From Myxococcales bacterium (GTDB lineage: Bacteria > Myxococcota_A > Polyangia > Polyangiales > Polyangiaceae), in NCBI GenBank assembly GCA_016212965.1, contig JACRDA010000308.1, positions 1 to 64,000 of the forward strand: 64,000 nt of DNA. The letters run 5' to 3'. Positions 22,416 through 64,000 of this stretch are shown here, in pieces. The notes under the pieces are model-generated. The model worked only from the letters and a program-made list of their open reading frames with translations. It did no database searches and had not been told where the DNA came from. Made by a program: the position numbers and the translations under genes. How positions within the stretch are numbered: the first letter of the stretch is position 1; the number at the start of each line of letters is the position of its first letter.

Positions 22416-23006
22416 ATGGGCCAGCCTGCGCTGAGGACCGGCGTCAGCCCGGAGGAGTACCTGGCGTTCGAGCGTGCGTCGGCGGACAAGCACGAGCTCT
22501 CGCACGGCGAGATCTTCGCCATGTCGGGCGGAACGCGGGCGCACGCCATGCTCGCGGCCGGACTCTTGCGGGAGCTCGGCGTCGCACTCCTCGAGCGCCC
22601 GTGCGAGATCTACACCTCGGACATGCGCGTGAAGATCGCGTCGTCCGGGAGCTACCTGTACCCCGACGTCAGCGTGGCGTGCGGCGAGCCTCGGGTCGAG
22701 GATGAGCACGGCGACACCCTCGTGAACCCCTCGCTGATCGTCGAGGTCCTTTCCGAGTCGAGCGAGGCCTACGACCGCGGCGAGAAGTTCGCGCAGTACC
22801 GCAGCGTGCCGTCCGTCAGCGACTACGTGCTCGTGTCGCAGACGGTCGCGCGCATCGAGCACTACCGGCGCCAGCCCGACGGCACGTGGCTGCTCACGAT
22901 CCTCGGGCCAGGGAGCGAGCTCGTGCTCGCGCCGCTCGACGTCAAGGTGGCCGTCGACCGCGTGTACCTGAAGGTGCCGCTACCGGGCGGGAGGTCGGCC
23001 GCCTGA
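22416..23006 (+). CDS. Uma2 family (DUF820) endonuclease-like protein
   Basis: SPEEYLAFERASADKHELSHGEIFAMSGGTRAH; YLYPDVSVACGEP; NPSLIVEVLSESSEAYDRGEKFAQYRSVPSVSDYVLVSQ. Confidence 0.85.
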   Translation: MGQPALRTGVSPEEYLAFERASADKHELSHGEIFAMSGGTRAHAMLAAGLLRELGVALLERPCEIYTSDMRVKIASSGSYLYPDVSVACGEPRVEDEHGDTLVNPSLIVEVLSESSEAYDRGEKFAQYRSVPSVSDYVLVSQTVARIEHYRRQPDGTWLLTILGPGSELVLAPLDVKVAVDRVYLKVPLPGGRSAA

Positions 23007-23858: not shown

Positions 23859-25922
23859 ATGCCGCACCGTGCCATCGCCCGGCGCGCGCTCGCGCGCGTG
23901 CTGCCGCTCGTCGTCGCGGGCCTCGCGCTCGCGGCCTGCGCGCCCGCGCCCGCCCGGCGGCAGGAGCCGACCGTCACGGCCCCGCCGATCGCGCAAATCC
24001 CGGCGCAGACGGCCACGCCGGGTGTCGAGGACGAGCGGCCGGCCGACGACACGCCTCGCACCCTGACGCCGGTCGCCCGCTACGGCGGCACGCGCTGGGT
24101 CGCGAGCTCGGAGGTGAAGGCCGTGGCCCTGTCGTCCGACGGCCGCTGGGCCGTGTCGGGCGGCGGCGACGGGCCGACGCCGCTGCTCTGGGACGCGCAG
24201 ACGGGCGAGCTCGCGGGCCCCCTCGGGGGCGCCACGCTCTCCGTCGCGGCGCTCGCCTTCACGCCCGACAGCAGGCTCGTCGCCGGGGCCGACATCGGCC
24301 GGAGCATCGTCGTCTGGGACGTCGCGACGCGCGCGGTCGTGCGGCGCCTCGAGGGTCACACGGCGAGCGTCTACCGCCTCGCCATCTCGCCCGACGGCAA
24401 GCTCCTCGCCTCGGGCGACGCGGACGGCGTGGTGCTGCTCTGGGACCTCGGCTCGAGCGCAGCGCCGCGCACGCTCGCCCGTGATCTCCCGTCGACGGGC
24501 GCGCTCGGTTTCTCGCCGGACAGCCGCACGCTCGCCGTGCCGAACGACGGGGGCATCGTCACCCTCTGGGACCTCGCATCGGGTCGCATGACGCGACAGT
24601 CGCCGGCTCCGAGCGGCAGGGTCCGGGCCGTGCACGGCCTGTGCTACTCGCACGACGGCACGAAGCTCGTGACCGGCGAGACGCTGGGCGACGGGACCCA
24701 AGCCGTGGTCGTGCGCGACGCGGCGAGCCTGCGCGTCCTGCGCACGCTCCTCGGCCACGACAACTACGCCTACGGCCTCGCGACGACGCCCGACGACCGG
24801 CTGCTCGTGTCGGCGGGCGGCGACGGACAGGTCCACGTGTGGGAGCTCGCGACGGGCCGAGAGCTCCACGCTCCGTCACACGCGGGCGTGCCGCTCTGGA
24901 CGCTCGGCCTGTCGCCCGACGGTCGGCTCGCCGTCGCGGCCGGCGGGGGCCGCAAGATCCACCTCTTCCGCGTCGACACCGGCGAGGCCGCCGTGCCCCA
25001 GGCCGACCACGAGGCCGCCATCGCAGAGCTGGCGTTCGCGCCCGACGGCCGCACCCTCGCCTCCGGGGACGACGACGGCGTCGTCATCGTGCGCGACCTC
25101 GCGAGCGGCACGGTGCGCCACCGCTTGCCGAAGCAGGCGCGCGCGCTCGCAGCGCTCGCCTGGAGCGCCGACGGCTCGCGCCTGTTCACGCTCGCGAACG
25201 GCGACGGACGCTACTGGAACGCGCAGACCGGCGCGCCCCTCGGCAGCCTCCAGCTCGGGCGCTTCGACGGCGCCGTCCTGTCGCCCGACGGCCGCTTCCT
25301 CGCCGCGAGCAGCTCCACGCGCATCGTGCGCCTCCTCGATGCGGCGACGGGCACCGTCATCCGCACCTTCGGCGAGGCCCAGCCCCACGACGACATCCGG
25401 CAGAACCTCATGACGCCGAGCGCGGTCTCCTTCTCGCCGGACGGCAAGGCACTCGCCGTGGCCCGCTGGGACCAGCCAACCCAGGTGTGGGAGATCGCGA
25501 CCGGCGCCCCGCTCCGCACGCTCGCCGGGACGCTCCACGTCGCCTTCTCGCCGCGCGGCGACCTCCTCGCGGGCAGCGTGGGCTCGGTGAGCAAGGGCGG
25601 GCGCGATCTCCGCACGCGCCTGTGGCGCGCCGCCACCGGCGCCGAGCTCTTCACCTTCGCCGGCGAGACCGCGCCCGTCTTCACACCCGACGGCCGACAC
25701 GTGCTCGTGCTCCACGACCCCGAGGCCGCCGCCCCGAGCGGCTCGACCCCGGCCCGCGAGCGCGAGCTCCTCGTGTGGAGCGCCGCGACCGGCCGGCTCG
25801 TGGCGCGCGCGCCGGTCCCCCGCCACGACGCGCTCGCCGCATCACCCCACGGCACGCTCGTCGCCCTCGGCAGCCGCGACGGTACGGTGGTCGTCTTCGA
25901 CCTCGCGCCGCCCGGGAGGTGA
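23859..25922 (+). CDS. WD40 repeat lipoprotein
   Basis: Lipobox LAACAP; repeated LAFSPDG..LASGD.DG.V.LWDLA units across about 600 aa. Confidence 0.85.
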   Translation: MPHRAIARRALARVLPLVVAGLALAACAPAPARRQEPTVTAPPIAQIPAQTATPGVEDERPADDTPRTLTPVARYGGTRWVASSEVKAVALSSDGRWAVSGGGDGPTPLLWDAQTGELAGPLGGATLSVAALAFTPDSRLVAGADIGRSIVVWDVATRAVVRRLEGHTASVYRLAISPDGKLLASGDADGVVLLWDLGSSAAPRTLARDLPSTGALGFSPDSRTLAVPNDGGIVTLWDLASGRMTRQSPAPSGRVRAVHGLCYSHDGTKLVTGETLGDGTQAVVVRDAASLRVLRTLLGHDNYAYGLATTPDDRLLVSAGGDGQVHVWELATGRELHAPSHAGVPLWTLGLSPDGRLAVAAGGGRKIHLFRVDTGEAAVPQADHEAAIAELAFAPDGRTLASGDDDGVVIVRDLASGTVRHRLPKQARALAALAWSADGSRLFTLANGDGRYWNAQTGAPLGSLQLGRFDGAVLSPDGRFLAASSSTRIVRLLDAATGTVIRTFGEAQPHDDIRQNLMTPSAVSFSPDGKALAVARWDQPTQVWEIATGAPLRTLAGTLHVAFSPRGDLLAGSVGSVSKGGRDLRTRLWRAATGAELFTFAGETAPVFTPDGRHVLVLHDPEAAAPSGSTPARERELLVWSAATGRLVARAPVPRHDALAASPHGTLVALGSRDGTVVVFDLAPPGR

Positions 25923-27905: not shown

Positions 27906-30281
27906 ATGAGCGTCGACGTCTTCACCCTGCACTGTTCGGCGGTACAGAGCGCACGCCTCGTCGGTTTCCGCGGCACCGAGATCCTCAATCGACCTTTCGA
28001 GCTGGACGTCTTCTTCACGGTCCCGGAGGGCACCGACATGCGTTCCGCCATAGGGGCCGCCGCGACACTGACCGCCAATCGCGCGGATGACACCCCGGTG
28101 CTCGCATGGCACGGCCTCTTCGTGCGGCTGCGGCTCGTCCACCAGACGGCGGAGCGCGCGCTCTACCACGGCTTGCTCGTGCCGAAGCTGTGGCTCCTGC
28201 AGCAGCACGCGCGCAGTCACGTGCAGACGAAGCCGGGCCAGAATGTGAAGGCGTTCACGACGGTCGCCCTGGAGGCCGGAGGACTCGCGAATGGCTCCGA
28301 TTTCCGCTTCACGACCGACGACGGCAACTACCCCAAGGAGGAGTTCGTCTGCCAGTACCGCGAGAGCCACATCGACTTCGTCCATCGCTGGTTCGAGCGC
28401 GAGGGGATCTACTACTACTTCGAGCACGCCGCACACACGACCGGCGAGCCGGTCATGGTCATCATGGACGAGAAGGGCTCCTACAACGCCCTCCGGGACG
28501 ACGGCCGGGTGCGCTACTACCCGACCGCCGCCGCAGACGCGTCCCACGGTGAATGCCTCCGCGAGCTCCACGTCGACCTCCGCCTCTTGCCTGCGACGGT
28601 CACCATCGCGGACCACAACTATGCCAACCCTTCCGCCCCGCTCGAGGGCGAACGCGCCGTGGCCGCCAACGGCCGGGGCGCCCTCCACGACTACGGCTAC
28701 CGCGTGTTCGACGCGGGCGAGGCGCGGCGGCTGGCCGGCATCAAGGCGCAGTCGCTCGCCTGCCGCGAGCTGACACTGCAGGCGCGCGGCAACTACCTCG
28801 GGTTGCGCGCGGGCTACAACTTCGAGGTCGAGGAAGGTCCCGCGGAGTACCCCGCGAAGTACCTGGCCATCGAGGTGCGCCACATGGGCGCCGTCACCGC
28901 GGCGACCCCGGAAGTGGCGCGTCTGACGGGACTCCGCACCGGCGAAACTTACGAGGTGGACGTCGTCGCCATTCCCCAGGAGACGCAGTTTCGCGCTCCG
29001 CAGGCAACCGCGTGGCCGCGCATCTACGGCTTCGAGCACGGCACCGTCGACGGTCCCGCCACGAGCACGTACGCGCAGATCGACGATCACGGCCGCTACC
29101 TGGTGCGCTTCCATTTCGACACGGCAGAGCTCGCCGACGGCTCCACCTCGACCTATCTGCGCATGATGCAACCGCATGGCGGCAACCCCGAGGGTTTTCA
29201 TTTCCCGCTGCGCAAGAACACCGAGGTGATGGTGGGCTTCCAGGGCGGCGATCCCGACCGACCGTTCATCGCGGGCGTCGTGCCCGACGCCACGACGCCG
29301 AGTCCCGTGACGAAGGGCAACTACTCGCAGAACGTGCTCCGCACGGGCGGCATGAACCACATGATCATCGAAGACCTCGAGGGCAAGCAGTTCATCTGGC
29401 TGCACACGCCCGAGAGGCACACCGAGATCTACATGGGTCACCCCAAGACCCGCACGCTGAACCAGCCAGCCGCGGCCCAGGGCCCGGGCGCGCCGGCCGA
29501 AGTGCCGTGCACGTTCTACCTGACCACCGACGACAACGCCGGATTCCATAGCGGCAAGGAGTGGTGGCAAACGGTGGGGACGAACTACTTCCTCGACGTC
29601 GGCGGCACGGCGCGTGTCCACTACAAGGGCATTCACACCATCAACATCGATGCCGACTCGAACGAATGGTACAATGCGCACCGCAATACCCATATCGCTG
29701 CGGGGCGCACCGATACCGTCGCCGCGGGGGGCATGGTCCAGACGATCCAGGCTGGTGGCTACACGCAGGAGATCACGCCCGGCGGCCAGCAGACGGTCCA
29801 CGGCGGCTGGAAGCACCACGTCGACTCGCTATGCACCGATGAGTACGGCGCGTGGCTGACCAAGGCCACGGACGGCTGGACGATGCAGGCGACGGCCAAG
29901 GTCGCGTGGACCATCGGTGGTGGCGGCGTGGAAATCAACACGGGCAAGGAGTTCAAGCTCACCGCGCCGAAGATCGAGCTGCACGGGCAGAGCTACCAGT
30001 TCCACTCGCACGAGGAGCACTTCATCGGCAACTTGCTGGAGGTGGTCGGCGCCGTGGAGGTCATCGGAGCCGCGATCCAGTTGCATGCAGCGCCGGCGCT
30101 GATCCACCTGACCGGGTACACCGTGCACACGGGCGGCTCCAGCACGCACACGCAGCTGCACCACCTCGAGAACACCGTGACGGGGATGAAGAACGAGGCC
30201 ACCGCCTTGGCCACCCGCGCCACCAAGCTCGAGACCGAAGTGTCCTGCATCCACAAGTTCGCAATCGCCATGATGGGATAG
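27906..30281 (+). CDS. vgrG: Type VI secretion system tip protein VgrG (TssI)
   Basis: NRPFELDVFFTV, EEFVCQYRESHIDFVHRWFEREGIYYYFEH, LRMMQPHGGNPEGFHFPLRKNTEVMVGFQGGDPDRPFIAGVVPDATTPSPVTKGNYSQNVLRTGGMNHM. Confidence 0.92.
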   Translation: MSVDVFTLHCSAVQSARLVGFRGTEILNRPFELDVFFTVPEGTDMRSAIGAAATLTANRADDTPVLAWHGLFVRLRLVHQTAERALYHGLLVPKLWLLQQHARSHVQTKPGQNVKAFTTVALEAGGLANGSDFRFTTDDGNYPKEEFVCQYRESHIDFVHRWFEREGIYYYFEHAAHTTGEPVMVIMDEKGSYNALRDDGRVRYYPTAAADASHGECLRELHVDLRLLPATVTIADHNYANPSAPLEGERAVAANGRGALHDYGYRVFDAGEARRLAGIKAQSLACRELTLQARGNYLGLRAGYNFEVEEGPAEYPAKYLAIEVRHMGAVTAATPEVARLTGLRTGETYEVDVVAIPQETQFRAPQATAWPRIYGFEHGTVDGPATSTYAQIDDHGRYLVRFHFDTAELADGSTSTYLRMMQPHGGNPEGFHFPLRKNTEVMVGFQGGDPDRPFIAGVVPDATTPSPVTKGNYSQNVLRTGGMNHMIIEDLEGKQFIWLHTPERHTEIYMGHPKTRTLNQPAAAQGPGAPAEVPCTFYLTTDDNAGFHSGKEWWQTVGTNYFLDVGGTARVHYKGIHTINIDADSNEWYNAHRNTHIAAGRTDTVAAGGMVQTIQAGGYTQEITPGGQQTVHGGWKHHVDSLCTDEYGAWLTKATDGWTMQATAKVAWTIGGGGVEINTGKEFKLTAPKIELHGQSYQFHSHEEHFIGNLLEVVGAVEVIGAAIQLHAAPALIHLTGYTVHTGGSSTHTQLHHLENTVTGMKNEATALATRATKLETEVSCIHKFAIAMMG

Positions 30282-30293
30282 CGGCCGCGTGCG

Positions 30294-32999
30294 ATGAAGG
30301 TCGTCAAGCCCGTCAAGGTGCCGGTGCTGTCTCGCGTCGTCGAGATGGCGCGGCAGCCCGTGTTCCACGTCGCAGGCCTGCTCGGCTTTCCGCTGGCGTC
30401 GCCGCGCGCGTTGCTCGACGAGCTCGGCTTCTGGAAGACGGTTCGGACCGTGCTCGGAGAGAATGGCGTCGTCGACGAAGGCACGGCCAAGGGCCGCGCC
30501 GAACTGCTCGTGGCGGGCAGCTTCCATGCTCCGGGGGGCGCGCCGTGCACGAGCGGGTTCGCCCGGGCGAAGCTCGGCGCCATCGACAAGCGCGTGGCGG
30601 TCCTCGGGGATCGCTACTGGCGACGCGGCGAGCAGACGGCGCCGGCGCCGTTCACAGAAATGCCGATCGACTGGGCGCATGCCTTCGGGGGCCCGAGCTT
30701 CGCGCGCAATCCCGCCGGCAAGGGCGCCGAGCCCGTCGAGCACGACGGCGTCGAGGTGCACCCACTACCCAATATCGAGCACCACGGCGCACTCATCCGC
30801 TCCGCACGTGAGAGACCCGAGCCTGCGGGCCTCGGCGCGTTCGATCTCAGCTACCCGCAGCGCCGCGCGCACGCCGGGACCTACGACAAGGGCTGGCTGG
30901 AGCAGCATTATCCCGGCATGCCACCCGATGCCGACGCGACGTTCTTCAACCTCGCGGCCGCGGACCAATGGCTCGCAGAGGGGTCCTTCCGGGGCGACGA
31001 GGAGTTCCTCGTCGAGAACATGAGCCCCTCGGCGGCGCGCATTACCGGTCGCTTGCCCGGGCTGGCACTGCGATCTTTCGTGACCCAACGGGGTCGTGCG
31101 GGCGAGGTCTTCTTCGAGATTCCGATGCGCTGCGACACCGTGTGGCTCATGCCCGGCGCTGGTGTCGGGGTGGTGGTCTTCCACGGTAGGTGGCGCGTGC
31201 TCGAGGACGACGCGGCCGACATCGTTCACCTGCTGACGGCGTGCGAGGAGACTGGAGCGCGGCGACCGCTCGACCACTACCGTGCGTGCCTGGCCCGGCG
31301 CCTCGACAAGGACCAGGGCGCGATCGCGAGCCTCTCCGACCGAGACCTGATGCCCGCGCGAGAGTCGGGCGTGGCGCCCAACTTCGACGGTGGCGACTTC
31401 GGACGCTGGCTGAAGACCGAGTCGCTCCCCGTCCAGCACGGGCTTCGGGGCGTCGCGCGGCAGCGCAAGCGCGCCGAGGACACGCTGAAGGAAAAGGGTA
31501 TCGACATCAGCCATCTGCCGCCGGCACCGCCCACCCCCATCTTCGCAGTCCCCGATCAGAGCGATCTCGACGCGGTCGCGGAGCACCTCGTCGAGCTACA
31601 GAAGCTGGGAGAGCAACAGCTCGCGGACGCCAAGGTCCAGAAGGCGCAGCTCGTCGAACGGGCGCGCCAGCGGCTGGCCGAGCAAGACCGCGACTACGAC
31701 GCCTGGGTCGACGAGCAGCAGGCCGCCGCCGGCGGTCCGGTCAAGCTGCCCTCCTACGAGCAGGTCGCGCAGCTCGAGCAGGTGGTGGCGCAGGCGCGCG
31801 CGGCCGGCACGCCCCTGCCGACGCTCGAGACGGCGCTCGCCGGCGGGCGCCTGAAGGAGCAGCTCGCCGAGCACCAAGCCCGCGCGGACGCGGCGTACCG
31901 CGCGAGCGCGCACCTGACACCGGGCAAGGCGAGCCGTGGCCACGAGGAGGAGGCGCGCCTGCGCGTCATCGTGCAGGCTGCGCTCGATAGTGGCGAGAGC
32001 CTCGCCGGCCGCGATCTGACGGGCGCCAGGCTCGCGGGGATGGTGCTCGCGGGCATCGATTTGACGGGCGCGTTCCTCGAGGCGGCCGACCTGTCCGGGG
32101 CCGACCTGCGCGGCGCGAAGCTCCGGAACGCAGTGCTCGCCAAGGCCACCTTGCGCGGCGCGAACCTGTCCGGTGCGGACCTCGGCGGCGCGAACCTGGG
32201 CGCCGCCGATCTACGGGACGCGACGTTGACCGGGGCGAACATGGCACGGGCTGTGCTGGGGCGCGCGACGCTCGCCGGTACGAGCCTCTGCGACGCCGAT
32301 CTCACCGGCGCGGATTGGCTCGAGGTGCAGTTCGCCGGCGTCGATCTCGGCGGCGCGAAGCTGCCGCAGTGCGCCTTCCTCGCGGTCGATCTGCGCGGCT
32401 CGAGCTTCGCGGGCGCCGACCTCAGCCGCGCCACGTTCGTGGCTTGCCAGCTCGAGGGCGCGAGCTTCGCCGGCGCGATGCTCGGCAAGGCCACGCTCGT
32501 CGACTGCCGGGGCACCGGCGCGTCGTTCGCAGGTGCGAAGATGGCGCAGGCCACGATTCTGTCCGGCTCGGCGCTGCCCGGCGCCAACTTCGCCGACGCG
32601 GATCTCGAGAGGGCGTGCCTGCGAACGACGGCTTTCCCGGGGGCCTGCTTCGATCGCGCCAATCTAGCCGGCGCCGACCTCTCGGAGTGCGACGCAACGG
32701 GAGCGAGCTTCGAGCGCGCCATGCTCGGGCGCGCCATGCTGGTCCGCACGAAGCTCGGAGGTGCCTCGTTCGCGGGGGCCAACCTGATGAACGCGATGCT
32801 CTCCAAGGCGCAGATCCCGGGAGCCGACTTCACGGGCGCGAATCTCTTCCAGGCCGATCTGGCGCGTGCCGTCGGTGACGACCGGACGCGCTTCACCGAG
32901 GCGGAACGCGGCCGGGTGCGCGTGGAGCCCAAGGCGTCACCGGCCGCGACGGGCCCCATGCCCGGCGACCCGCCGCCGGAGTCGGGAGGCGTGACGTGA
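30294..32999 (+). CDS. DUF2169 domain protein fused to pentapeptide repeats (T6SS-associated)
   Basis: N-term VLGDRYWRRGEQTAPAPFTEMPIDWAHAFGG...NPAGKG...LPNIE (DUF2169-like); C-term long A(D/N)LxGA pentapeptide array. Confidence 0.85.
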   Translation: MKVVKPVKVPVLSRVVEMARQPVFHVAGLLGFPLASPRALLDELGFWKTVRTVLGENGVVDEGTAKGRAELLVAGSFHAPGGAPCTSGFARAKLGAIDKRVAVLGDRYWRRGEQTAPAPFTEMPIDWAHAFGGPSFARNPAGKGAEPVEHDGVEVHPLPNIEHHGALIRSARERPEPAGLGAFDLSYPQRRAHAGTYDKGWLEQHYPGMPPDADATFFNLAAADQWLAEGSFRGDEEFLVENMSPSAARITGRLPGLALRSFVTQRGRAGEVFFEIPMRCDTVWLMPGAGVGVVVFHGRWRVLEDDAADIVHLLTACEETGARRPLDHYRACLARRLDKDQGAIASLSDRDLMPARESGVAPNFDGGDFGRWLKTESLPVQHGLRGVARQRKRAEDTLKEKGIDISHLPPAPPTPIFAVPDQSDLDAVAEHLVELQKLGEQQLADAKVQKAQLVERARQRLAEQDRDYDAWVDEQQAAAGGPVKLPSYEQVAQLEQVVAQARAAGTPLPTLETALAGGRLKEQLAEHQARADAAYRASAHLTPGKASRGHEEEARLRVIVQAALDSGESLAGRDLTGARLAGMVLAGIDLTGAFLEAADLSGADLRGAKLRNAVLAKATLRGANLSGADLGGANLGAADLRDATLTGANMARAVLGRATLAGTSLCDADLTGADWLEVQFAGVDLGGAKLPQCAFLAVDLRGSSFAGADLSRATFVACQLEGASFAGAMLGKATLVDCRGTGASFAGAKMAQATILSGSALPGANFADADLERACLRTTAFPGACFDRANLAGADLSECDATGASFERAMLGRAMLVRTKLGGASFAGANLMNAMLSKAQIPGADFTGANLFQADLARAVGDDRTRFTEAERGRVRVEPKASPAATGPMPGDPPPESGGVT

Positions 33000-34060
33000 A
33001 CCGCGAGCGCTTGCTCGACGCGATCCACCACGCGGAGCCCATTCGCGAACTGGACCTGTCCGCGCTCGATCTCAGCGGGGTCGACCTCGGAGGGGGGATG
33101 TTCGAGAGCGTGCGGTTCCCGGCGGCAATGCGGGGAGCACGGTTGCGCGAGGCCAACGTCATCGCCTGCGACTTCTCGCGCTGCCGGCTCGACGAGACCG
33201 ACTGGCATCTCGCCAGCGTGATCCAGACGACCTTCCAGCGCGCGCGCCTCACGGGCAGCAACCTCACCGCCGCCAAGTTCGCGCAATGCAGCTTCGATGG
33301 CGCCGCCCTTGGCGGCGTCGAGGCTCCGCTGGCAGCCTGGGTGAACAGCTCGCTCTGCGGCGCGTCGTTCGTGGGGGCGGAGCTCGAGCGGGCCACCGTG
33401 CTCGAGACCGACGTGGCGGGCGCCACCTTTGCCGGCGCCAATCTCGACAAGGCGACCCTGCTGAAGCTCGACCTCACGACGGTGGAGCTCGCAGGCGCAA
33501 ACCTGACGCTGACGACGCTCATCGATGCCAAGCTCGGACCCAAGGACTTCGCCAAGTGCCGGCTGTTCCGCACCCAGTTCATGCGGAGCGAGCTCGAGGG
33601 CGCGAGCTTCGCCGGCTGTGAGCTCGTGCAGTGCAACTTCATGGCCGCAGCGCTGCGAGGCGCGCGCTTCGACGGGGCGCGGGCCGGGCAGTGCTTCTTC
33701 GGCGAGGCAGCGCTCGAAGACGCGCGATTCGCAGGCGCGTTCCTGAAGCAGGCGGTGTTCGAGAAGGCGCGGTTGGCGCGTGCCGATTTCACCGGAGCCA
33801 TGCTCGAGGAGGCCGTCTTGACGCAGACGCAGTGCGAGTCGGCGAAGTTCCTGCGCGCCACGCTGACCCACGCGGACTTCTCGCACGCGGAGCTCGACGG
33901 GGCGGACTTCACCGGAGCGCGCCTGTTTCGCACCAAGTTTCATCTCGCCCGTCGCGAGCAGGCGATCCTGCCGCGCGCCACGGGCTGGATCGGCGAGGAC
34001 GAAGAGCTGGCCAGGGCGGAGCTCTGGCGGCCGCAGCACGGCAAGGAGACGAGTCAATGA
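32996..34060 (+). CDS. Pentapeptide repeat protein
   Basis: IRELDLSALDLSGVDLGGGMFESVRFP...ADFTGAMLEEAVLTQTQCESAKFLRATLTHADFSHAELDGADFTGARLF. Confidence 0.85.
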   Translation: MNRERLLDAIHHAEPIRELDLSALDLSGVDLGGGMFESVRFPAAMRGARLREANVIACDFSRCRLDETDWHLASVIQTTFQRARLTGSNLTAAKFAQCSFDGAALGGVEAPLAAWVNSSLCGASFVGAELERATVLETDVAGATFAGANLDKATLLKLDLTTVELAGANLTLTTLIDAKLGPKDFAKCRLFRTQFMRSELEGASFAGCELVQCNFMAAALRGARFDGARAGQCFFGEAALEDARFAGAFLKQAVFEKARLARADFTGAMLEEAVLTQTQCESAKFLRATLTHADFSHAELDGADFTGARLFRTKFHLARREQAILPRATGWIGEDEELARAELWRPQHGKETSQ

Positions 34061-34626
34061 CCGCCGCACGGAGACTTCGCGAACTGGACAGTCGGTTGGT
34101 GTCGGGTGTGGTCGTGGAGACCAGCCCGAGGCTGCAGGTGCGCATCGGCGAGGAGCTCTACTCGGTGCTTCGGGCGAAGAGCTGCCTGGTGGCACCGGAG
34201 CAGCGGGACCGGGTCCTGTGCGCCATCGAGCACGACGCCGTGTTCGTCCTCGCGGTTCTCTCCGGAGCCGAGGGAGCGACGACCCGCGTCACCGCCGCGG
34301 GCGACGAGCTGTCGATCGAGGCTCGGCAGATCACCATCCGGGCCGAAGCCGGCACCGTGGCCGTGGATCGACTCGGGGTCTTCGGGAGCCTCGTGAACGC
34401 CCAGGTCCGCAAGGTAGTGCTCCTCGCCGACCAGCTCGACGCGGTCGCCGAGCGCATTGCGCAGCGGGCCAAGCGCGTGTTCCGGTTCGTGGAGGACGTC
34501 GACCAGCTGCGCGCCGGCATCGTGGACATCCGGGCCGAGAGCCTGGCGGCGATCCGCGCCGAGAATGCCCTCATCTCGGCCCGCGTCCTCGCCAAGATCG
34601 ACGGCGAGCAGATCAACCTCGGCTGA
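34057..34626 (+). CDS. DUF3540-like T6SS-associated protein
   Basis: Overlaps previous stop (ATGA); ITIRAEAGTVAVDRLGVFGSLVNAQVRKVVLLADQLDAVAERIAQRAKRVFRFVEDVDQLRAG; position between PPR and PAAR-like genes. Confidence 0.65.
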   Translation: MTAARRLRELDSRLVSGVVVETSPRLQVRIGEELYSVLRAKSCLVAPEQRDRVLCAIEHDAVFVLAVLSGAEGATTRVTAAGDELSIEARQITIRAEAGTVAVDRLGVFGSLVNAQVRKVVLLADQLDAVAERIAQRAKRVFRFVEDVDQLRAGIVDIRAESLAAIRAENALISARVLAKIDGEQINLG

Positions 34627-34637
34627 AGGAGCGGACC

Positions 34638-35039
34638 ATGCTGGCGAAGAGCTCTGCCGGTGGCATGTGCCTGGCGTTTCCGGACGTGTGCCTCACCCCT
34701 GCGCCTCCGGCGCCGGCGCCGGTGCCGATCCCCTATCCGAACACGGGCGTCGAGCCGACCGACACGACGTTCGTCACCAACGTGCTCATCACCTGCACGC
34801 CGGCCCACAACATGTCGACCGAGCCGGTGATGACCAACGGCGACAACGCGGGCGTCGCGACCGGCGTCGCATCCGGCACGGTCATGGGGCCGGCGCGGAC
34901 GATCACGGCGGCGTTCACGTGCATCGTCGGTGGCATGCCGCTGTCGCGGCTCACTTCCATGACGCTCCAGAACAACACGAACGCACCGGGCGCCAAGATC
35001 GTGCCGAGCGCCACCAACGTGCTGGTCCTGGCGCCGTAG
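34638..35039 (+). CDS. DUF4150/PAAR-like T6SS spike protein
   Basis: AGGMCLAFPDVCLTPAPPAPAPVPIPYPNTG...TRTITAAFTCIVGGMPLSRLTSM style PAAR-like sequence, 133 aa. Confidence 0.8.
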   Translation: MLAKSSAGGMCLAFPDVCLTPAPPAPAPVPIPYPNTGVEPTDTTFVTNVLITCTPAHNMSTEPVMTNGDNAGVATGVASGTVMGPARTITAAFTCIVGGMPLSRLTSMTLQNNTNAPGAKIVPSATNVLVLAP

Positions 35040-39082: not shown

Positions 39083-39171
39083 ATGACCGGGCTCGAGTGG
39101 GTCGGAGCGGGGCTCGCCCTCGTTCTCCTGGGCTATTTGTTCGTGGCGCTGCTCCTGCCGGAGAAGCTGTC

Positions 39172-39175
<4 letters not shown>
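39083..39175 (+). CDS. kdpF: K+-transporting ATPase small subunit KdpF
   Basis: [30 protein letters not shown], KdpF-like; stop overlaps the kdpA start (ATGA). Confidence 0.8.
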
Positions 39176-41805
<2,630 letters not shown>

Positions 41806-52547: not shown

Positions 52548-53120
52548 ATGGTCATGCGCCTGCTCCACCGTCCTGCGACGCGGGCCGACCTCGACGCGCT
52601 GCCGCCCGGCGAGAAGGGAGAGATCGTCGACGGAGTGCTCTACACCCAACCGCGTCCGCGAGCGCCGCACCAGGAGATCACCTCCCTGCTCGCCGACGAT
52701 CTCGTCGGGCCGTATCGACGCGGCCGCGGCGGTCCGGGCGGCTGGTGGATCCTGGTCGAGCCCGGCATCGCCCTGCCCGAGGCGCCTGAGGTGGCCCCCG
52801 ATCTCGCGGGCTGGCGGCGCGAGCGACTCGCCTCCTTGCCGCGCGAGGCCGCCATCGAGCTCGCGCCGGACTGGGCGTGCGAGATCCACTCGCCGACGAC
52901 GCGCGGCTATGACCTCGTCACCAAGCGGCGGCTCTACGAGCGCATCCGCGTCGGCCACCTCTGGTACGTCGACCCCGAGGCGCAGACCCTGCGCGTGAGC
53001 CGCCTCGAGGGCGTGCACTACGTGGAAATCGCCGTGCACGGCCCGGGGGAGCGACCGCGCTGTGAGCCCTTCGACGCCGTCGAGCTCGAGCTCGACGAGT
53101 GGTGGGCGGCGCTCGCGTAG
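52548..53120 (+). CDS. Uma2 family (DUF820) endonuclease-like protein
   Basis: LPPGEKGEIVDGVLYTQPRPRAPHQEITSLLADDL; APEVAPDLAGWRRER; CEIHSPTTRGYDLVTKRRLYERIRVGHLWYVDPEAQTLRV. Confidence 0.9.
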   Translation: MVMRLLHRPATRADLDALPPGEKGEIVDGVLYTQPRPRAPHQEITSLLADDLVGPYRRGRGGPGGWWILVEPGIALPEAPEVAPDLAGWRRERLASLPREAAIELAPDWACEIHSPTTRGYDLVTKRRLYERIRVGHLWYVDPEAQTLRVSRLEGVHYVEIAVHGPGERPRCEPFDAVELELDEWWAALA

Positions 53121-53385
53121 GTCGGCCTCGAGTAGCCGTTCACGTCCCGCCACCAGGGACGACGGCTCGCCGAGCCCGCGGCGCTCGACCTCCGGCGCGA
53201 GGGGCTCGATGCCAGTCGTGGACGCCGATCCGTGCTAAGCTCGGCGACCCAGGGGACGAGGGACACCGGACGGCGCCGCGGCCGGGCGGCGGGTCCACGG
53301 ACGCGGGGTCGCCGACCCGCGCCCGGCGACGCGATCGCTCGTGCGGGGGTTGCGACCGGCTCACCACCCCGAGGCAGAGAGCGCC

Positions 53386-55734
53386 ATGATCCACGACCAC
53401 TTCTCCCTCCTCGCACCCGACCTCGGCGAAGGCCTGCGCGTGCTCGCGTTTCGCGGCACGGAGGCGATCTCGACGTCGTACCTGTTCGAGGTCTTCTTCC
53501 TCGGCGCGGCCAAGGCCATCGACGAGGCCGCCGCGGCCGTCGGGTCGGGCGCAACGCTGCAGGTGAACGCCGAGGACGGGTCGGCCGTGCTCGCGTGGCG
53601 CGGGATCGTCGAGGCGGTCGAGATCGTCGAGGCGCACGGCGAGCGCGCCCTCTACCGGGTCGAGCTGCGCCCGCGCCTCCACCGCCTGACGCACGAGGTG
53701 CACAGCCGCATCTGGGTGGACAAGGACGTGCCGGCCATCGTGAAGGAGCTCCTCGACGCCGCCACGGTCGGGCACTCGCTGGCGCTCGACGGGACCTACA
53801 CCGCGGTCGAGCACATCGGCCAGTACCACGAGACCGACTTCGACTTCGTGAGCCGCCGGCTCGAGCGCGAGGGCATCCACTACTACTTCGACCACGAGGG
53901 CGACGAGGAGAAGCTCGTCGTGACCGATCGCGGCGCGACCCACGACCCGTCGCCTGCCGCACCCGTGCGCTTCGTCCCGCTCGCCGATCAGTCGACCCAG
54001 GCCATGGCCGGGGAGGCGATCTACCGCTTTCGCGCGCGCCACGGGACCGTGGCGTCCGACATCCTCCTGCGCGACTACGACTACCTGAAGCCCGCGCTCG
54101 CCCTCGAGGGCGAGGCCGCGGTCGCGTCGGGTCACCAGGGCAAGGTCGCCGTGTTCGGCACGGCGCTGCGCGATCCGGGCGAGGCGAGCCACCTCGCGAC
54201 GGTGCGCGCCGAAGAGCGCGCCATCCCCGTCGCGACCTACCACGGCACGGGCAGCGTGCTCGGCCTGCGCACGGGCTACGAGCTCGAGCTCACCGAGCAC
54301 CCGTGGAGCAGCCTCGACGGGAAATACCTCGTCACGCGCCTCCGGCACCGCGGCGTCGACCACGCGCGCGTGCGCCAGTTCGCGCGCGCCATCGACCCCG
54401 ACGGCGAGTGGCTCGCGGGCGGGGGCGCCGAGGATCCGTACCGCGTCGACTTCGACGCCGTGAAGAGCGGCGTGCCCTTCCGGCCCGAGCGCAAGACGCC
54501 CTGGAAGCGCGTGGACGCGCTCGAGCACGCGCGCGTCGACGGCCCCGCGGACGACGACTACGCGCAGATCGACGACCACGGGCGCTACCACGTGCGCCTG
54601 CTCTGGGACGAGACCGAGGCGAAGGCGGGCGGCAACAGCACCTGGGTGCGCATGCTCCAGCCCCACGCCGGCGCGCCCGAGGGCTGGCACTTCCCCCTGC
54701 GCAAGGGGACCGAGGTGCTCGTCGCCTTCGTGCGCGGCGATCCGGACCGGCCGCTCATCGTCGGCACGGCCCACAACCCCGAGGTCCCGAGCCCCGTCAC
54801 GAGCCAGAACGCGAGCCAGAACGTGCTTCAGACCGGGGGCAAGAACCGCCTCGAGATCGAGGACCAGGCGGGCAAGGAGTACCTGGCCTGGACCTCGCCG
54901 ACCCAGACCTCGACCCTGCACCTCGGCGCGAAGGCGGGCCCCTACCAGGAGGCCCACAACGCCACCCTGCGCACCGACGGCGACGCGAAGGTCCACGCCG
55001 GCGGCGCCCGGCACATCACGGTCGTCGGCGAACAGACCGAGGACGTGCAGGGCAACGTGGTCGAGGACTACCACTCGAGCCAGACGACCCACGTCGACGG
55101 CGACTGGACGGAGACGATCGACGCCGGCGCGACGCAGACCATCTCGGCCGGCGAGACGCGCACCGTCCACGCCGGCGTGACCGAGACCATCACCGGCGGC
55201 GAGACCCGCACCATCACGGGCGATCAAACCGAGGACGTGTCGGCGAACGTGACCTGCACCATCGGCGCGAACCGCTCGGACACGATCGGCGCGAGCTCGA
55301 CCGTGAGCATCGGCGCGAACAGCACGTTGACGGTGGGAGGGGCGCAGACGGCGACGATCACCGGAGGCGTGACGCAGACCATCGGGGGCAACTTCACGCT
55401 CATCGCGGCCGGGCCGGTGACCTTCACGGCCGCGGCGGGTTTCACGGTCCTGGCGCCGGGGGGCGTCAACATGATCGACAACGGCAACGACCACAAGGGC
55501 TTCAAGAACGAGAACGAGTACGCCGAAGCGGTCAAGGTACTGGGCATCAAGGCGGAGGCCATCGGCATCGAGACCAAGGTCGTCCGCCTGGGTATCGAGC
55601 GCCTCGGCGCCGGCGTGGACTTGATCGCCGGCGTCAAGAACGAGAAGTGGGCCAGCCAGAAGAAGATCATCGGTGGCTGGATGAAGCCCACGGGGCTCGT
55701 CCAGCTCATCACGGTCTTGCACAAGCTGGGCTGA
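53386..55734 (+). CDS. vgrG: T6SS tip protein VgrG, tandem copy 1
   Basis: ISTSYLFEVFFLG, QYHETDFDFVSRRLEREGIHYYFDHEGDEEKLVVTD, MLQPHAGAPEGWHFPLRKGTEVLVAFVRGDPDRPLIVGTAHNPEVPSPVT; C-terminal TETI..GETRT repeats. Confidence 0.93.
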   Translation: MIHDHFSLLAPDLGEGLRVLAFRGTEAISTSYLFEVFFLGAAKAIDEAAAAVGSGATLQVNAEDGSAVLAWRGIVEAVEIVEAHGERALYRVELRPRLHRLTHEVHSRIWVDKDVPAIVKELLDAATVGHSLALDGTYTAVEHIGQYHETDFDFVSRRLEREGIHYYFDHEGDEEKLVVTDRGATHDPSPAAPVRFVPLADQSTQAMAGEAIYRFRARHGTVASDILLRDYDYLKPALALEGEAAVASGHQGKVAVFGTALRDPGEASHLATVRAEERAIPVATYHGTGSVLGLRTGYELELTEHPWSSLDGKYLVTRLRHRGVDHARVRQFARAIDPDGEWLAGGGAEDPYRVDFDAVKSGVPFRPERKTPWKRVDALEHARVDGPADDDYAQIDDHGRYHVRLLWDETEAKAGGNSTWVRMLQPHAGAPEGWHFPLRKGTEVLVAFVRGDPDRPLIVGTAHNPEVPSPVTSQNASQNVLQTGGKNRLEIEDQAGKEYLAWTSPTQTSTLHLGAKAGPYQEAHNATLRTDGDAKVHAGGARHITVVGEQTEDVQGNVVEDYHSSQTTHVDGDWTETIDAGATQTISAGETRTVHAGVTETITGGETRTITGDQTEDVSANVTCTIGANRSDTIGASSTVSIGANSTLTVGGAQTATITGGVTQTIGGNFTLIAAGPVTFTAAAGFTVLAPGGVNMIDNGNDHKGFKNENEYAEAVKVLGIKAEAIGIETKVVRLGIERLGAGVDLIAGVKNEKWASQKKIIGGWMKPTGLVQLITVLHKLG

Positions 55735-55765
55735 CGGCCGAAACCCCACACCGAGCGAGCTCGAC

Positions 55766-58126
55766 ATGACGGATCTCTACGTAGTCGCCATCGACGGCCT
55801 GCCCACCGGTACCCGGGTCGCCGCCTTCGTCGGGCGCGAGGCCATCTCCGAGTGCTTCGCCTTCGAGATCTCCCTCGTCGTGCCAGCGCAGGACGGGTCG
55901 TTTCAACCGGAGATGCTCGTGGGCGCCGAGGCGTGCCTGTCCTTCGGCGACGCCGAGCCGGGCGCGCAGCCGCTCTGCGCGGGTGTCGTGGCCGGGGCCG
56001 AGCTGGTGCAGGCCACCTCGAGCCACGGCTTCTTGCGCGTCACCGTGCGACCACACCTCTTTCGTCTCTCGCTCGCGCGCCAGAGCCGCATCTGGACGGA
56101 CAAGAAGGTGAGCGACGTCGTGAAGGACGTGCTCGAACGCGCGGAGCACCAGGGTCACGAGCTCAAGCTCGAGGGCGACTACCCCGAGCACGTCCACATC
56201 TGCCAGTACCACGAGACCGACCTCGAGTTCTTCGAGCGACGGCTCGAGCGCGACGGCATCTTCTACTGGTTCGAGCACGCCGCGGGCGGCGAGAAGCTCG
56301 TTCTGGCCGACTCGGCGGGAGGCTGCGGTACTGGCCCGACGTGCAGATTTCGCCGCGCCGGTGCCGGCGCCGCCGAGGGCGGCAGCGCGGCGATCCTGCG
56401 CCTCGGCTCCCGCAAGGAGCTCACGTCGAAGAAGGTCAAGCTCGGCGATTACGACTACCTGCACCCCGCCCTCGCCGTCACCGGCGAGGCGGCGCCGCCT
56501 GGCGGCCTGCTCGGCGAGGTCTCCCTCTTCGGAGGCAACCTCCTCACCCCGGGCGACGCGAAGCGCCTGGCCAAGGTGAGGGCCGAGCGCCTGGGCGTGG
56601 AGGCCGAGCGCTACACGGGCACCGGGACCGTGCGGACCCTGCGGAGCGGCTGCGTCTTCGAGCTCGAGGAACACCCGCTCGCGGACCTCAACGGCAAGTA
56701 CCTCGTCACGGAGCTCCACCACAGTGGCGTGGATCTCGGCCTCATGCGCACCTTCGGAGCCCTGCTCGACGTCGACGCGCCCGGCACGACCCACCACGCT
56801 CGCAGGGCGCGCATGGGCGCCGAGGCCGAGCCCTACCACGTGGAATTCTCGGCCGTCCGAGAGGCTCAGCCCTTCCGCCCGGCCCTGCGGCGCCCGGTGC
56901 CGCGCGTCCCCGGCCTCGAGTACGGTGTCGTCGATGGTCCGGCCGACAGCGACTCCGCGCAGATCGACGAGCACGGCCGCTACCGGACGCGCCTCTTGTT
57001 CGACGAGGCGGACGCGGACGCGGCGAAGAACAGCGCCTGGCTCCGCATGATCCAGCCGCACGCCGGCGCGCCCGAGGGCTGGCACCTGCCCCTGCGCAAG
57101 GGCACCGAGGTGCTGGTGGCGTTCGTCGCGGGCGAGCCCGATCTGCCGGTGATCGTCGCCGCCGTGCCCAACGCCGTCACGCCGAGCCCGGTCACGGCGA
57201 GCAACCACACGCACAACGTGTTCCAGTCGGGCGGCAAGAACCGCGTCCAGATCGAGGACCAGGACGGCAAGCAGTACGTGGCCGTGTTCTCGCCGCCCGA
57301 GAAGACCACGCTTCACCTCGGAGCCTCCGACGGCCAGTATGCCGAAGGCCATCACGCCACCGTGCGAACCGACGGCGACATCCGCATCCACGCGGGCGCC
57401 AACCGGCACATCACCGTCGGCGGCGAACAGACCGAGGACGTCGGCGGCGACGTGACCGAGACCTACCACGCCACCCAGGCGACCCACGTCTTCGGCGCCT
57501 TCACCGAGACCATCGACGCGGGCGCCACCCAGACCATCAACGGCGGCGAGACGCGCACGGTCGACGGCGGCGTCACCGAGGACATCTCCGGGGGCGAGAC
57601 GCGCAGCATCACCGCCAACCAGACCGAGACGATCTCGGCCAACCTGACGCGCACCATCGGCGCGGATCTCTCGGACACGATCGGTGCCAACGCCACGTTC
57701 ACCGTCGGGGCCGGTCAGACCGAGACGACGGGAGGCGCGCGCACGGAGGACGTCGGAGGCAACGTCACCATCGTGACGGCGGGCGCCTACGACTACACCG
57801 CGATCGGCGGCGCCACCTGGAGCACACCCGGAGGCTTCACGCTGCTCGCGCCCGGGGGCGTGTCGGAGACGGACCAGGAGCACGAGGGCGAGGGTGGCAA
57901 GTTCCTGCAGATGTACGGCGCCTCGACGGAGGCGGCGGCCTTCGTGTTCGACATCGCTTACATCGTGACGGAGGTCATCGGGGCGAAGGTCGAAATGAGC
58001 ATGGACAAGCACGAGGGCGGAGGCGCCAAGGTCGAGGCCGTGGGCTCCATCCAGCACTCACGCGCGCGACACGCGGGCCGGATGGCGCTGAGCGCAATCA
58101 CCTTCGGCTTCCTCAACTGGACGTGA
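55766..58126 (+). CDS. vgrG: T6SS tip protein VgrG, tandem copy 2
   Basis: QYHETDLEFFERRLERDGIFYWFEHAAGGEKLVLAD, MIQPHAGAPEGWHLPLRKGTEVLVAFVAGEPDLPVIVAAVPNAVTPSPVT; TETI..GETRT repeats. Confidence 0.93.
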   Translation: MTDLYVVAIDGLPTGTRVAAFVGREAISECFAFEISLVVPAQDGSFQPEMLVGAEACLSFGDAEPGAQPLCAGVVAGAELVQATSSHGFLRVTVRPHLFRLSLARQSRIWTDKKVSDVVKDVLERAEHQGHELKLEGDYPEHVHICQYHETDLEFFERRLERDGIFYWFEHAAGGEKLVLADSAGGCGTGPTCRFRRAGAGAAEGGSAAILRLGSRKELTSKKVKLGDYDYLHPALAVTGEAAPPGGLLGEVSLFGGNLLTPGDAKRLAKVRAERLGVEAERYTGTGTVRTLRSGCVFELEEHPLADLNGKYLVTELHHSGVDLGLMRTFGALLDVDAPGTTHHARRARMGAEAEPYHVEFSAVREAQPFRPALRRPVPRVPGLEYGVVDGPADSDSAQIDEHGRYRTRLLFDEADADAAKNSAWLRMIQPHAGAPEGWHLPLRKGTEVLVAFVAGEPDLPVIVAAVPNAVTPSPVTASNHTHNVFQSGGKNRVQIEDQDGKQYVAVFSPPEKTTLHLGASDGQYAEGHHATVRTDGDIRIHAGANRHITVGGEQTEDVGGDVTETYHATQATHVFGAFTETIDAGATQTINGGETRTVDGGVTEDISGGETRSITANQTETISANLTRTIGADLSDTIGANATFTVGAGQTETTGGARTEDVGGNVTIVTAGAYDYTAIGGATWSTPGGFTLLAPGGVSETDQEHEGEGGKFLQMYGASTEAAAFVFDIAYIVTEVIGAKVEMSMDKHEGGGAKVEAVGSIQHSRARHAGRMALSAITFGFLNWT

Positions 58127-58147
58127 CGTCGACTGCCCGAGGACGAG

Positions 58148-60478
58148 ATGGATCGCTTCAAACTCGAGATCGATGGGGTCGACGGACTGCGCGTCGCGGC
58201 GTTCGCCGTCGACGAGCGCATCTCGGCGCCCTACCTGGCGCGTGTGTTCGCGTCGCTCCCCGAGGCGGACCTCGGGTCCCTCGACGGCGTCCTCGGCAAG
58301 CGCGGCGCGCTCACGGTCCCGGGCGCGGACGACGCGGCTTCCCTCCACTTCCCGGGCATCGTGACCGCGCTCGAGCTGATGCACACCTTCGGCGAGCGAG
58401 CGCTCGTCGAGGTCGTCTTGCGGCCGACGCTCTGGGGCCTCGGGCTCGAGTGCCACAGCCGCGTGTGGGTGAAGAAGAAGGTGCTCGACGTCGTCAAGGA
58501 GCTGCTCGACAAGGGCGGCGTCGCGCACGAGCTCCGGACCGAGGCGAGCTACGTCGAGCACGAGCACGTCTGCCAGTACCGCGAGACGGACCTCGACTTC
58601 GTCGCCCGCTCTCTCGAGCGCGACGGCCTGCACTACTACTTCGAGCTCGCCGAGGGCGAGGACAAGCTCGTCGTCTCCGACGGTCCGCACGCCACGGACC
58701 TGCACCCGCCTTCGCCCGTCCGCTGCGTGGGCTCCTTCGACGCGGGCGCCGCGGGCAGCGTGGGCGAGACGCTCCACGGCTTCGCCGCCCGCCGCTCCGC
58801 CCGGAGCAAGGAGGTCGAGGTCGCCGACTACTACTCCCCGAAGCCGGCGCTCGCGCTCCGCGAGCGCAAGCCCGTCATCGATCCGGCGCTCGGCACCGCG
58901 ATCGCGTTCGGAGGTCAGGCCTGGTCACCCGCCGAGGCGAAGCGCCTCGCGCAGGTGCGCGCCGAGCAGGCGGCAGCCGAGGCCGTCCTCTTCCGCGCGA
59001 CCGGCACGGTCCTCGGCCTGCGCGCGGGCTACCACTTCGAGGTGGGCGAGCACCCGATCGCCGACCTGCTCGGCGAGTACCGAGCCGTGGCGGTCCGGCA
59101 CCTCGGCTTCGACGCCGTCGCGGGCCGCGGGCTCGAGGCGTGGATCGATCCCGAGCGCGCGTGGCTGCGCGCCGACGGCCTGCCTTACCACGTGAGCGTC
59201 GAGGCCGTCCGGGCCGACGTCCCCTACCGCGCCGCGCGCAAGACGCCGTGGCCCCGCGCCCACGGCCTCGAGCACGCGCGCGTGGATGGCGCGGCCGATG
59301 GGGACTACGCGCAGCTCGACGACCAGGGTCGCTACCGCGTGAAGCTCCTCTTCGACGAGAACGACTCCCCCGCCGGGGAGGCGAGCGCCCTCTTGCGCCT
59401 GATGCAGCCCCACGGCGGCGCGCCCGAGGGCTGCCACTTCCCGCTCCGCAAGGGGACGGAGGTCCTCGTGGCCTTCGTCGAGGGCGACCCCGACCAGCCC
59501 GTGCTGGTGGGCGCCGTGCCCAACCCCGAGACCCCGAGCACGGTCACCGACGCGAACAACACGCAGAACGTCATCCAGACGGGCGGCAAGAACCGCATCG
59601 AGGTCGAGGACAAGGCGGGCTCCGAGTACGTCGTGCTCTACTCGCCGCCCGAGAAGACGACGCTCCACCTCGGCGCCTCCGACGGGCCCTACGCCGACGG
59701 ACACCACGTGCGCCTCAGCACCGACTGCGACGCCAAGATCCACGCGGGAGGGGCGCGCCACATCACCATCGGCGCCGAACAGACCGAGGACGTGACGGGA
59801 CGGGTCGTCGAGGACTACCACAGCGATCAGACGACCCACGTGTACGCCGCCTTCGACGAGACGATCGACGGCAGCGCCACCCAGACCATCCATGCGGGCG
59901 AGACCCGGACCGTCACGGGCGGCCTGACCGAGACCATCACCGGTGACGAGACGCGGAGCGTCGCGCCCGATCAAACCGAGGACGTGTCGGCCTCCGTCAC
60001 GCGCACGATCGGCGCCAACCTGACCGAGACCGTCGGCGCGGCCGTGGACCGCACCATCGGCGCCGACGAGACGATCTCCGTGGGCGGCAACGTGACCCAG
60101 ACCATCGCGGGCGGCGTCACGACGAGCACGCCGGCGGCGCTGTCGGTCACGACGGGCGGCAGCGCGACCTTCATCGCACCGTCGGGTTTCACCATCAGCG
60201 CGCCCGGCGGCTTCCACAACGTCGACGGCGAGTGGGTGAAGACCGGTGGCTGGGAGAAGGACGCCTTCGTCGAGAAGGGCTCGCTCGTCGGGTTCAAGCT
60301 CGAGATCATGGCGGTGGCGGCGTCGGTCGCGGTATCGCGCATCTCCGGAACGGTTGCGAAGCTCGCCTACATCGCGACGGAGTTCGAGGCGGAGACCGAC
60401 GAGGAGGAGGACGAGCCGATCGAGCTCTGCGAAGGCGGGCTCTTGCTCGAGCCCTCCGGCAACCACAGCGAATCCTGA
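58148..60478 (+). CDS. vgrG: T6SS tip protein VgrG, tandem copy 3
   Basis: QYRETDLDFVARSLERDGLHYYFELAEGEDKLVVSD, LMQPHGGAPEGCHFPLRKGTEVLVAFVEGDPDQPVLVGAVPNPETPSTVT; TETI..GETRT repeats. Confidence 0.93.
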   Translation: MDRFKLEIDGVDGLRVAAFAVDERISAPYLARVFASLPEADLGSLDGVLGKRGALTVPGADDAASLHFPGIVTALELMHTFGERALVEVVLRPTLWGLGLECHSRVWVKKKVLDVVKELLDKGGVAHELRTEASYVEHEHVCQYRETDLDFVARSLERDGLHYYFELAEGEDKLVVSDGPHATDLHPPSPVRCVGSFDAGAAGSVGETLHGFAARRSARSKEVEVADYYSPKPALALRERKPVIDPALGTAIAFGGQAWSPAEAKRLAQVRAEQAAAEAVLFRATGTVLGLRAGYHFEVGEHPIADLLGEYRAVAVRHLGFDAVAGRGLEAWIDPERAWLRADGLPYHVSVEAVRADVPYRAARKTPWPRAHGLEHARVDGAADGDYAQLDDQGRYRVKLLFDENDSPAGEASALLRLMQPHGGAPEGCHFPLRKGTEVLVAFVEGDPDQPVLVGAVPNPETPSTVTDANNTQNVIQTGGKNRIEVEDKAGSEYVVLYSPPEKTTLHLGASDGPYADGHHVRLSTDCDAKIHAGGARHITIGAEQTEDVTGRVVEDYHSDQTTHVYAAFDETIDGSATQTIHAGETRTVTGGLTETITGDETRSVAPDQTEDVSASVTRTIGANLTETVGAAVDRTIGADETISVGGNVTQTIAGGVTTSTPAALSVTTGGSATFIAPSGFTISAPGGFHNVDGEWVKTGGWEKDAFVEKGSLVGFKLEIMAVAASVAVSRISGTVAKLAYIATEFEAETDEEEDEPIELCEGGLLLEPSGNHSES

Positions 60479-60489
60479 GGCAGCACGGC

Positions 60490-63117: not shown

Positions 63118-64000
63118 TGCTGCGCGACGATCTGGTGAGCTTCATCCACGGCGGCGAGATCGCGCGCAAGCTCGATCTGTCGGGCGCCGATCTCGCGGGC
63201 GCCGATCTCGCGGGCGGGATCTTCGAACAGGTGTGCTTCGCGGGTGCGAACCTCGAGGGCGCGCGCTTCGAGGAGGCGATGCTCTTCAACTGTGACCTCC
63301 GCGGCGCGCGCCTCGCCGGCGCCTCGTTTCGCATGGTCATCATCAACGAGTCGAACCTCGAGGGCGCCGACCTGCGCCATACGAACCTCGGGGCCGCGAA
63401 GATCGCCGGGACGAACCTCGCCGGGGCCGACCTCTCCGGCGCCGACCTCACGATCGCCTCCATGGCGAAACCCGACCTCCGCAACGCCAAGTTCTGGGGC
63501 GCGAAGCTCGACCGCACGGGCTTCATGGACGCGCTCACCGAGGGCATCGGCTTCCGCGGCGCGAAGCTCCAGATGGTGACCATGCTGAAGGTCGACATGC
63601 GCACGGCCGACTTCACCGACGCGGAGCTCGATCTCGTGGTCATGCTCGACTCGAACTTCTCGGGGCGCGATCTCAAGGGCGTGCGCTTCGGGCGCTGCCA
63701 GTTCAAGGGCTGCGACTTCTCGGGCACGGATCTCACGGGCGCCGAGCTCGGCCAGGCGAGCTTCCACCAGGCGAACGTGTGCGACGCGAACTTCGAGGGC
63801 GCCGAGGCCGAGCGCGCCATCTTCATGGAGGCGAAGGCGCACCGGACGCGCTTCGTGAAGACCCACCTCCGCCAGGCCATCTTCCAGGACGCCGACCTCG
63901 AGGAGGCCAACCTCGCGGGCGCCGATCTCTACCAGACGAACTTCGCCCGCGCTCGCTGCGCCGGCACGAAGTTCACCGGCTGCGAGCTCACCTACGCCGA
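63117..64000 (+). CDS. Pentapeptide repeat protein, partial (runs off window)
   Basis: ATG overlaps previous stop (TGATG); MLRDDLVSFIHGGEIARKLDLSGADLAGADLAGGIFEQVCFAGANLEGARFEEAML... open to base 64000. Confidence 0.85.
   Translation, partial: MLRDDLVSFIHGGEIARKLDLSGADLAGADLAGGIFEQVCFAGANLEGARFEEAMLFNCDLRGARLAGASFRMVIINESNLEGADLRHTNLGAAKIAGTNLAGADLSGADLTIASMAKPDLRNAKFWGAKLDRTGFMDALTEGIGFRGAKLQMVTMLKVDMRTADFTDAELDLVVMLDSNFSGRDLKGVRFGRCQFKGCDFSGTDLTGAELGQASFHQANVCDANFEGAEAERAIFMEAKAHRTRFVKTHLRQAIFQDADLEEANLAGADLYQTNFARARCAGTKFTGCELTYA

Follow-up and report, generated by a model that had tools for sequence, protein, structure and literature searches.

A Class III Tvp spike-assembly module of the T6SS in a Polyangiaceae-like genome, and VgrG trios in modules of the same kind

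Five genes lying side by side on the + strand of the analysed DNA (27906-35039 of the window, which is the whole stretch of 64,000 nucleotides) are read here, with a probability of about 0.9, as a self-contained Class III Tvp module that assembles a VgrG-PAAR spike of the T6SS. The family content, the gene order, the conservation of the layout, the domain architecture of TvpAB and the OB fold of TvpC are direct observations. The module is of a known kind, correctly observed in a little-studied host; what is new comes from beyond these coordinates, namely from the VgrG trios described below.

Gene content and likeness to the Class III Tvp system

The first gene encodes a VgrG (TssI; 27906..30281, 791 aa), in which gp27-like and OB domains are followed by a distal β-prism of ~330 residues counted from the OB motif; an unusually long β-prism is a mark of Class III, and its length is taken here from sequence alone. 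The assignment is based on Pfam (Phage_GPD PF05954, 6e-53; Phage_base_V PF04717, 1e-7), on TIGR03361 (above cut-off) and on PDB relatives, which are VgrGs; VgrG1 of Serratia has 786 aa (PMC13373197). The second product, TvpAB (30294..32999, 901 aa), joins a DUF2169 domain (residues 1-320; Pfam, 4e-74) through a helical linker (326-566) to a C-terminal pentapeptide-repeat (PPR) solenoid (571-876; Pfam Pentapeptide, 2e-52). This fusion, characteristic of Class III, was also seen in the AF2 model built on an alignment of 35 homologues (mean pLDDT 87.9), where a confident DUF2169 fold precedes an unbroken solenoid, and the best Foldseek match was 8vth, a solved DUF2169 protein (E 9e-18, TM 0.76 on target). 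Next come a stand-alone PPR protein, TvpB (32996..34060, 354 aa; PF00805, 4e-36), the predicted VgrG mimic TvpC (34057..34626, 189 aa), which is of the longer DUF3540 type (PF12059, 2e-42) and not DUF6484, and a PAAR-like tip (34638..35039, 133 aa) with a DUF4150/PIPY domain (Tox-PAAR-like PF13665, 4e-36, residues 9-118) and the motif PIPYPN. All three are further marks of Class III, and so is the order vgrG-tvpAB-tvpB-tvpC-paar, which is conserved in relatives.

Curated Pfam cut-offs were exceeded by all family assignments of the five proteins, and all five reading frames are intact. Sequence and Pfam confirmed the genes in the order and coordinate range that the first-pass annotation had given, all on the + strand. 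The 4-bp ATGA overlaps that it described between them were found at TvpB/TvpC only (34057-34060); the TvpAB/TvpB junction is a GTGA overlap (32996-32999), and gaps of 12 bp and 11 bp separate VgrG from TvpAB and TvpC from the tip gene, respectively.

In the AF2 model of TvpC an OB fold was obtained at residues 12-69 (pLDDT ~97), while the monomer model did not resolve the β-prism, as one would expect if it forms an intertwined trimer. Foldseek matched TvpC to OB folds only, apart from weak matches to the spikes of R2 pyocin and of an eCIS, and a sequence search of DUF3540 against the PDB gave no significant match, the weak ones being mainly contractile-injection spikes (Afp8, Pvc8, VgrG). Alignments showed that the window TvpC is ~24 residues shorter than most relatives just after the OB fold, in the prism region. 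TvpCs that are short in the region after the OB fold recur in the related loci L109, L110 and L111; the deletion in the window protein has different boundaries from that of L110, therefore the prism length varies repeatedly.

The closest studied counterpart is the Class III Tvp system of Serratia marcescens Db10, with the order vgrG1-tvpAB-tvpB-tvpC-paar1 (EMBO J 2026, PMC13373197). The two share the five families and their relative order, the DUF2169-PPR fusion, the DUF3540-type TvpC, the stand-alone PIPY tip and the long VgrG. They differ in that tvpAB directly follows vgrG in the window module, with neither a vai1-like gene nor any other in between, that its TvpC has 189 aa and a shortened prism region, and that its genome contains six or more such modules. 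The same DUF2169-PPR fusion accompanied by VgrG, DUF3540 and DUF4150 is also found in the DUF2169 'synteny type C' loci (Sachar et al. 2025, JBC, PMC11883445) and group 5 of the B. glumae T6SS (PMC8747328); experimentally studied examples of these are Proteobacterial, whereas the window module belongs to a Polyangiaceae-like member of Myxococcota. With Class II (P. aeruginosa VgrG1b/PA0096-0098) and Class I (A. tumefaciens Tap2) systems it has in common a DUF2169 chaperone for a PIPY tip; those systems, in contrast, have no PPR proteins, possess a DUF6484-type TvpC or none, and carry a tip-fused effector. The earlier reading of the genes as a T6SS spike module was thus borne out, family content and gene order both matching the Class III Tvp system. 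The description of the DUF2169-pentapeptide fusion as poorly characterised was right until 2025-2026 and has since been overtaken by the solved DUF2169 structure 8VTH, reported together with the renaming of DUF4150 as the PIPY domain (PMC11883445), and by the work on Serratia (PMC13373197).

The architecture was found in Myxococcota, Desulfovibrionaceae and Proteobacteria. Among loci drawn from the host's order and from named genomes, 108 carry VgrG, TvpA, TvpC and the tip in this order (a few were fetched by two routes, so that distinct loci are somewhat fewer), and in 105 the TvpC (DUF3540) and tip genes are adjacent. With so many loci sharing the layout, the gene order is no chance grouping. 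The scan used DUF2169 as query, the DUF3540 alignment being too poorly conserved for scanning; DUF3540 is present in 35 of 145 genomes of the host's order.

In Serratia it was shown that firing of VgrG1-Paar1 needs every Tvp gene and that interface mutants abolish activity; Paar1, TvpAB and TvpB co-purify with TvpC or with VgrG1 and never with both. TvpAB and TvpB act as clamps on the tip, which sits first on TvpC (DUF3540), a mimic of VgrG, and then on VgrG itself (PMC13373197). Secretion of TvpAB or TvpB was, according to the authors, never detected (PMC13373197). By homology, the window module would work in the same way. A TvpC trimer, which would mimic the OB and prism parts of VgrG without the Hcp-docking domain, would take up the PIPY/PAAR tip, which is hydrophobic; TvpAB would cap this tip with its DUF2169 domain and, together with TvpB, would wrap and belt it with pentapeptide solenoids. 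TvpC would then be replaced by VgrG, and the tipped spike would nucleate the baseplate and be fired, with TvpAB and TvpB remaining in the cell. The pre-complex, the TvpC/VgrG exchange and the non-secretion of the clamps are all carried over from S. marcescens.

Pentapeptide-repeat proteins and the question of cargo

No recognisable toxin or immunity gene had been noticed in the module at first, and HMM searches for hidden toxin domains upheld this: with Pfam and NCBIfam the five proteins gave spike, chaperone and PPR families only, and Pfam revealed no effector domain in the tip protein. It had been proposed instead that the pentapeptide helix, or the whole DUF2169-PPR fusion, might itself be cargo or a DNA mimic. 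Under that proposal TvpAB and TvpB would be delivered toxins acting on gyrase or DNA in the manner of MfpA or Qnr, with which they do share the pentapeptide solenoid fold; the solenoid of TvpAB was matched by Foldseek to HetL, synthetic solenoids, Qnr and MfpA. Yet the window PPR proteins score only ~77-81 bits against the Qnr family (curated cut-off 240) and 39-61 bits against MfpA (cut-off 360), their net charges of -2 and -7 are near neutral and not like those of a DNA mimic, and their genes stand in a T6SS operon. As judged from these scores, the similarity to Qnr and MfpA is at the level of the repeat only. Moreover, both solenoids are conserved in over 100 loci, which is not the pattern of diversifying toxins, and the Serratia homologues are assembly factors inside the producing cell that were not detected as secreted (PMC13373197). 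Since TvpAB and TvpB of Serratia are tip clamps for spike assembly, the cargo and gyrase-mimic readings are not supported, and we consider delivery of these proteins as toxins exceedingly improbable. By analogy, the pentapeptide-repeat proteins in all likelihood serve as clamps during assembly rather than as toxins. This chaperone role would explain why the module appears 'toxin-less', and annotators should therefore not list such proteins as effectors.

If the clamps are not the cargo, where does the toxicity reside? In Serratia the toxicity of the pathway tracks with VgrG1 itself and takes the form of membrane depolarisation; pull-downs with the immunity protein Vai1 recovered VgrG1 only, and a separate effector could not be found (PMC13373197). 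The toxicity of the window module may likewise track with its VgrG. The hydrophobic distal prism or the C-terminus of VgrG would then be a cryptic, membrane-active effector, a role already suggested for VgrG1 of Serratia, and the module would have no cargo gene besides. The last 26 residues are hydrophobic in 84% of 77 Class III VgrGs from the host's order (+0.48 in the window protein), and such a tail is missing from most of the 12 VgrGs used for comparison, some of which are truncated ORFs. The tail could, however, equally be a tip-docking surface, the isolated C-terminal domain of Serratia VgrG1 was not specifically toxic (PMC13373197), and no Vai1-like gene lies beside the window VgrG, which is separated from tvpAB by a mere 12 bp. 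We regard membrane activity of VgrG as a tentative possibility, at somewhat less than even odds.

Another explanation, to which we give a similar and likewise less than even chance, is that an effector encoded elsewhere in the genome is loaded on the spike in trans. The ~40 VgrGs of this genome make orphan cargo genes plausible, and the flanks of the module hold unrelated genes only, namely a WD40 protein upstream (23859-25922) and a PepF-family M3 peptidase 58 bp downstream; against this, no candidate was linked to the module by any of the analyses made. No further module gene was found upstream of VgrG. The M3 peptidase, a PepF-family protein that does not recur beside other modules, was rejected as cargo. 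The flanks vary from locus to locus, and across ~75 loci no recurrent toxin or immunity family was found beside the module; families that recur in at least three loci can mostly be put down to synteny between related species, and the non-module neighbours in the window belong to none of them. Some relatives have genes between VgrG and TvpAB (in Sorangium, one with a TROVE domain), and these were rejected as a 'cargo slot' since they have no common family.

Spike kits and secretion core of the host genome

The host MAG (9.0 Mb in 502 contigs, 86% complete), whose named relatives are Polyangiaceae, contains ~40 VgrGs (44 match rows), nearly 30 DUF2169 genes (34 match rows) and 13 DUF4150 genes above the cut-off. 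Six strong DUF3540 matches were obtained together with several partial ones, and their modules share the layout wherever the contig is long enough. Polyangiaceae can thus bear a heavy load of Tvp kits, this one genome having ~40 VgrGs and no fewer than six Class III modules. Set against a single TssC-like match in the 9 Mb MAG, the numbers of VgrG and DUF2169 genes make a picture of many spike kits and few machines.

No match to TssK or TssF was found in the 86%-complete MAG, and it may be asked whether the module is decaying or orphaned, in a genome without a working T6SS; the ~24 residues missing from the window TvpC would fit such decay. However, the reading frames are intact and short TvpCs recur in related loci. 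Full-length TssK is present in 20 of the 22 other DUF3540-bearing genomes examined, so the missing TssK and TssF most likely represent an assembly gap. (Four family members without DUF3540 were also searched for TssK, with no match in three and a weak, split match in one.) The single TssC match of the MAG is a divergent TssC-like copy that stops 122 bp short of where contig C8 ends, and in the relatives G131 and G110 this divergent gene lies ~1 kb from canonical TssC, on the opposite strand; the core was therefore probably left unassembled. On these grounds a genome truly devoid of a T6SS core was rejected in favour of the assembly gap, and decay of the module is judged very unlikely. A divergent TssC-like gene of this kind (in the MAG at G000:C8:17712-18569), with an open frame of ~650-880 aa, is convergent with, or otherwise near, canonical TssC in many Polyangiales.

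Among the other genes of the window, one ORF of 902 aa (39097-41805) joins the start of KdpA to a P-type ATPase (KdpB-like) region and could be a fusion or a frameshift artefact. Two Uma2-family proteins (putative restriction endonucleases) are encoded at 22416-23006 and 52548-53120, and a relative of the latter also occurs near a module in L100.

VgrG trios and possible heterotrimeric spikes

A second Class III Tvp module occupies 53341-63998 of the window and extends to ~C201:65237, so that its TvpC and tip genes lie just past the window end. Three tandem VgrGs (53341-55734, 55766-58126, 58148-60478) precede its TvpAB. Counting in six frames the VgrG runs immediately upstream of TvpA gave ~80 loci with a single VgrG, 12 distinct loci with exactly three (L010, L013, L088, L092, L093, L094, L101, L127, L144, L169, L170 and L175), and none with four or more. 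Two VgrGs were found only in two orthologous loci (L014, L187), hence doublets arose once; L104/L204 has one VgrG before the chaperones and two after them. In trees the trios fall in ~9 separate lineages, including Polyangiaceae and Desulfovibrionaceae (monophyly of the L127 trio is weak, 59%), and where several genomes were sampled, which was so for two lineages, the VgrGs group by their position in the trio (first, second or third) into distinct clades of orthologues. We infer separate origins of the trios; an old trio subject to gene conversion is a possible alternative.

Within trios the length from OB motif to stop is often matched, e.g., 329/328/328 or 336/336/337. The median difference is 1 residue at 30-60% identity, compared with 19 for between-locus pairs of equal identity, the pairs not being independent. 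Lengths are less well matched in L169, L010, L104 and the Desulfovibrio trios, where one subunit is 170 residues longer. In the latter (L170:6970, L175:6884) the third VgrG alone bears a C-terminal extension of ~170 residues, rich in Ala, Pro, Asp and Asn.

The VgrG spike is a trimer. Because of this, and because trios comprise exactly three genes whose lengths are often matched, three-VgrG modules suggest heterotrimeric spikes. At even odds, we propose that obligate heterotrimers have arisen repeatedly among Class III spikes, with three dedicated VgrGs for each set of tip and chaperones, and that the window would accordingly hold one homotrimeric module (27906-35039) and one heterotrimeric module (53341 onward). 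For Vibrio cholerae a heterotrimer of VgrGs has been suggested, while a test in Aeromonas found effectors, and not VgrG identity, to be decisive (PMC8668125); VgrG1 and VgrG2 of Serratia appear not to mix (PMC4924876). No report of operon-encoded VgrG trios turned up in a search of open-access papers. If borne out, the trios would offer a natural test of obligate heterotrimeric spikes, which are debated for Vibrio and Aeromonas (PMC8668125) and apparently excluded for two Serratia VgrGs (PMC4924876).
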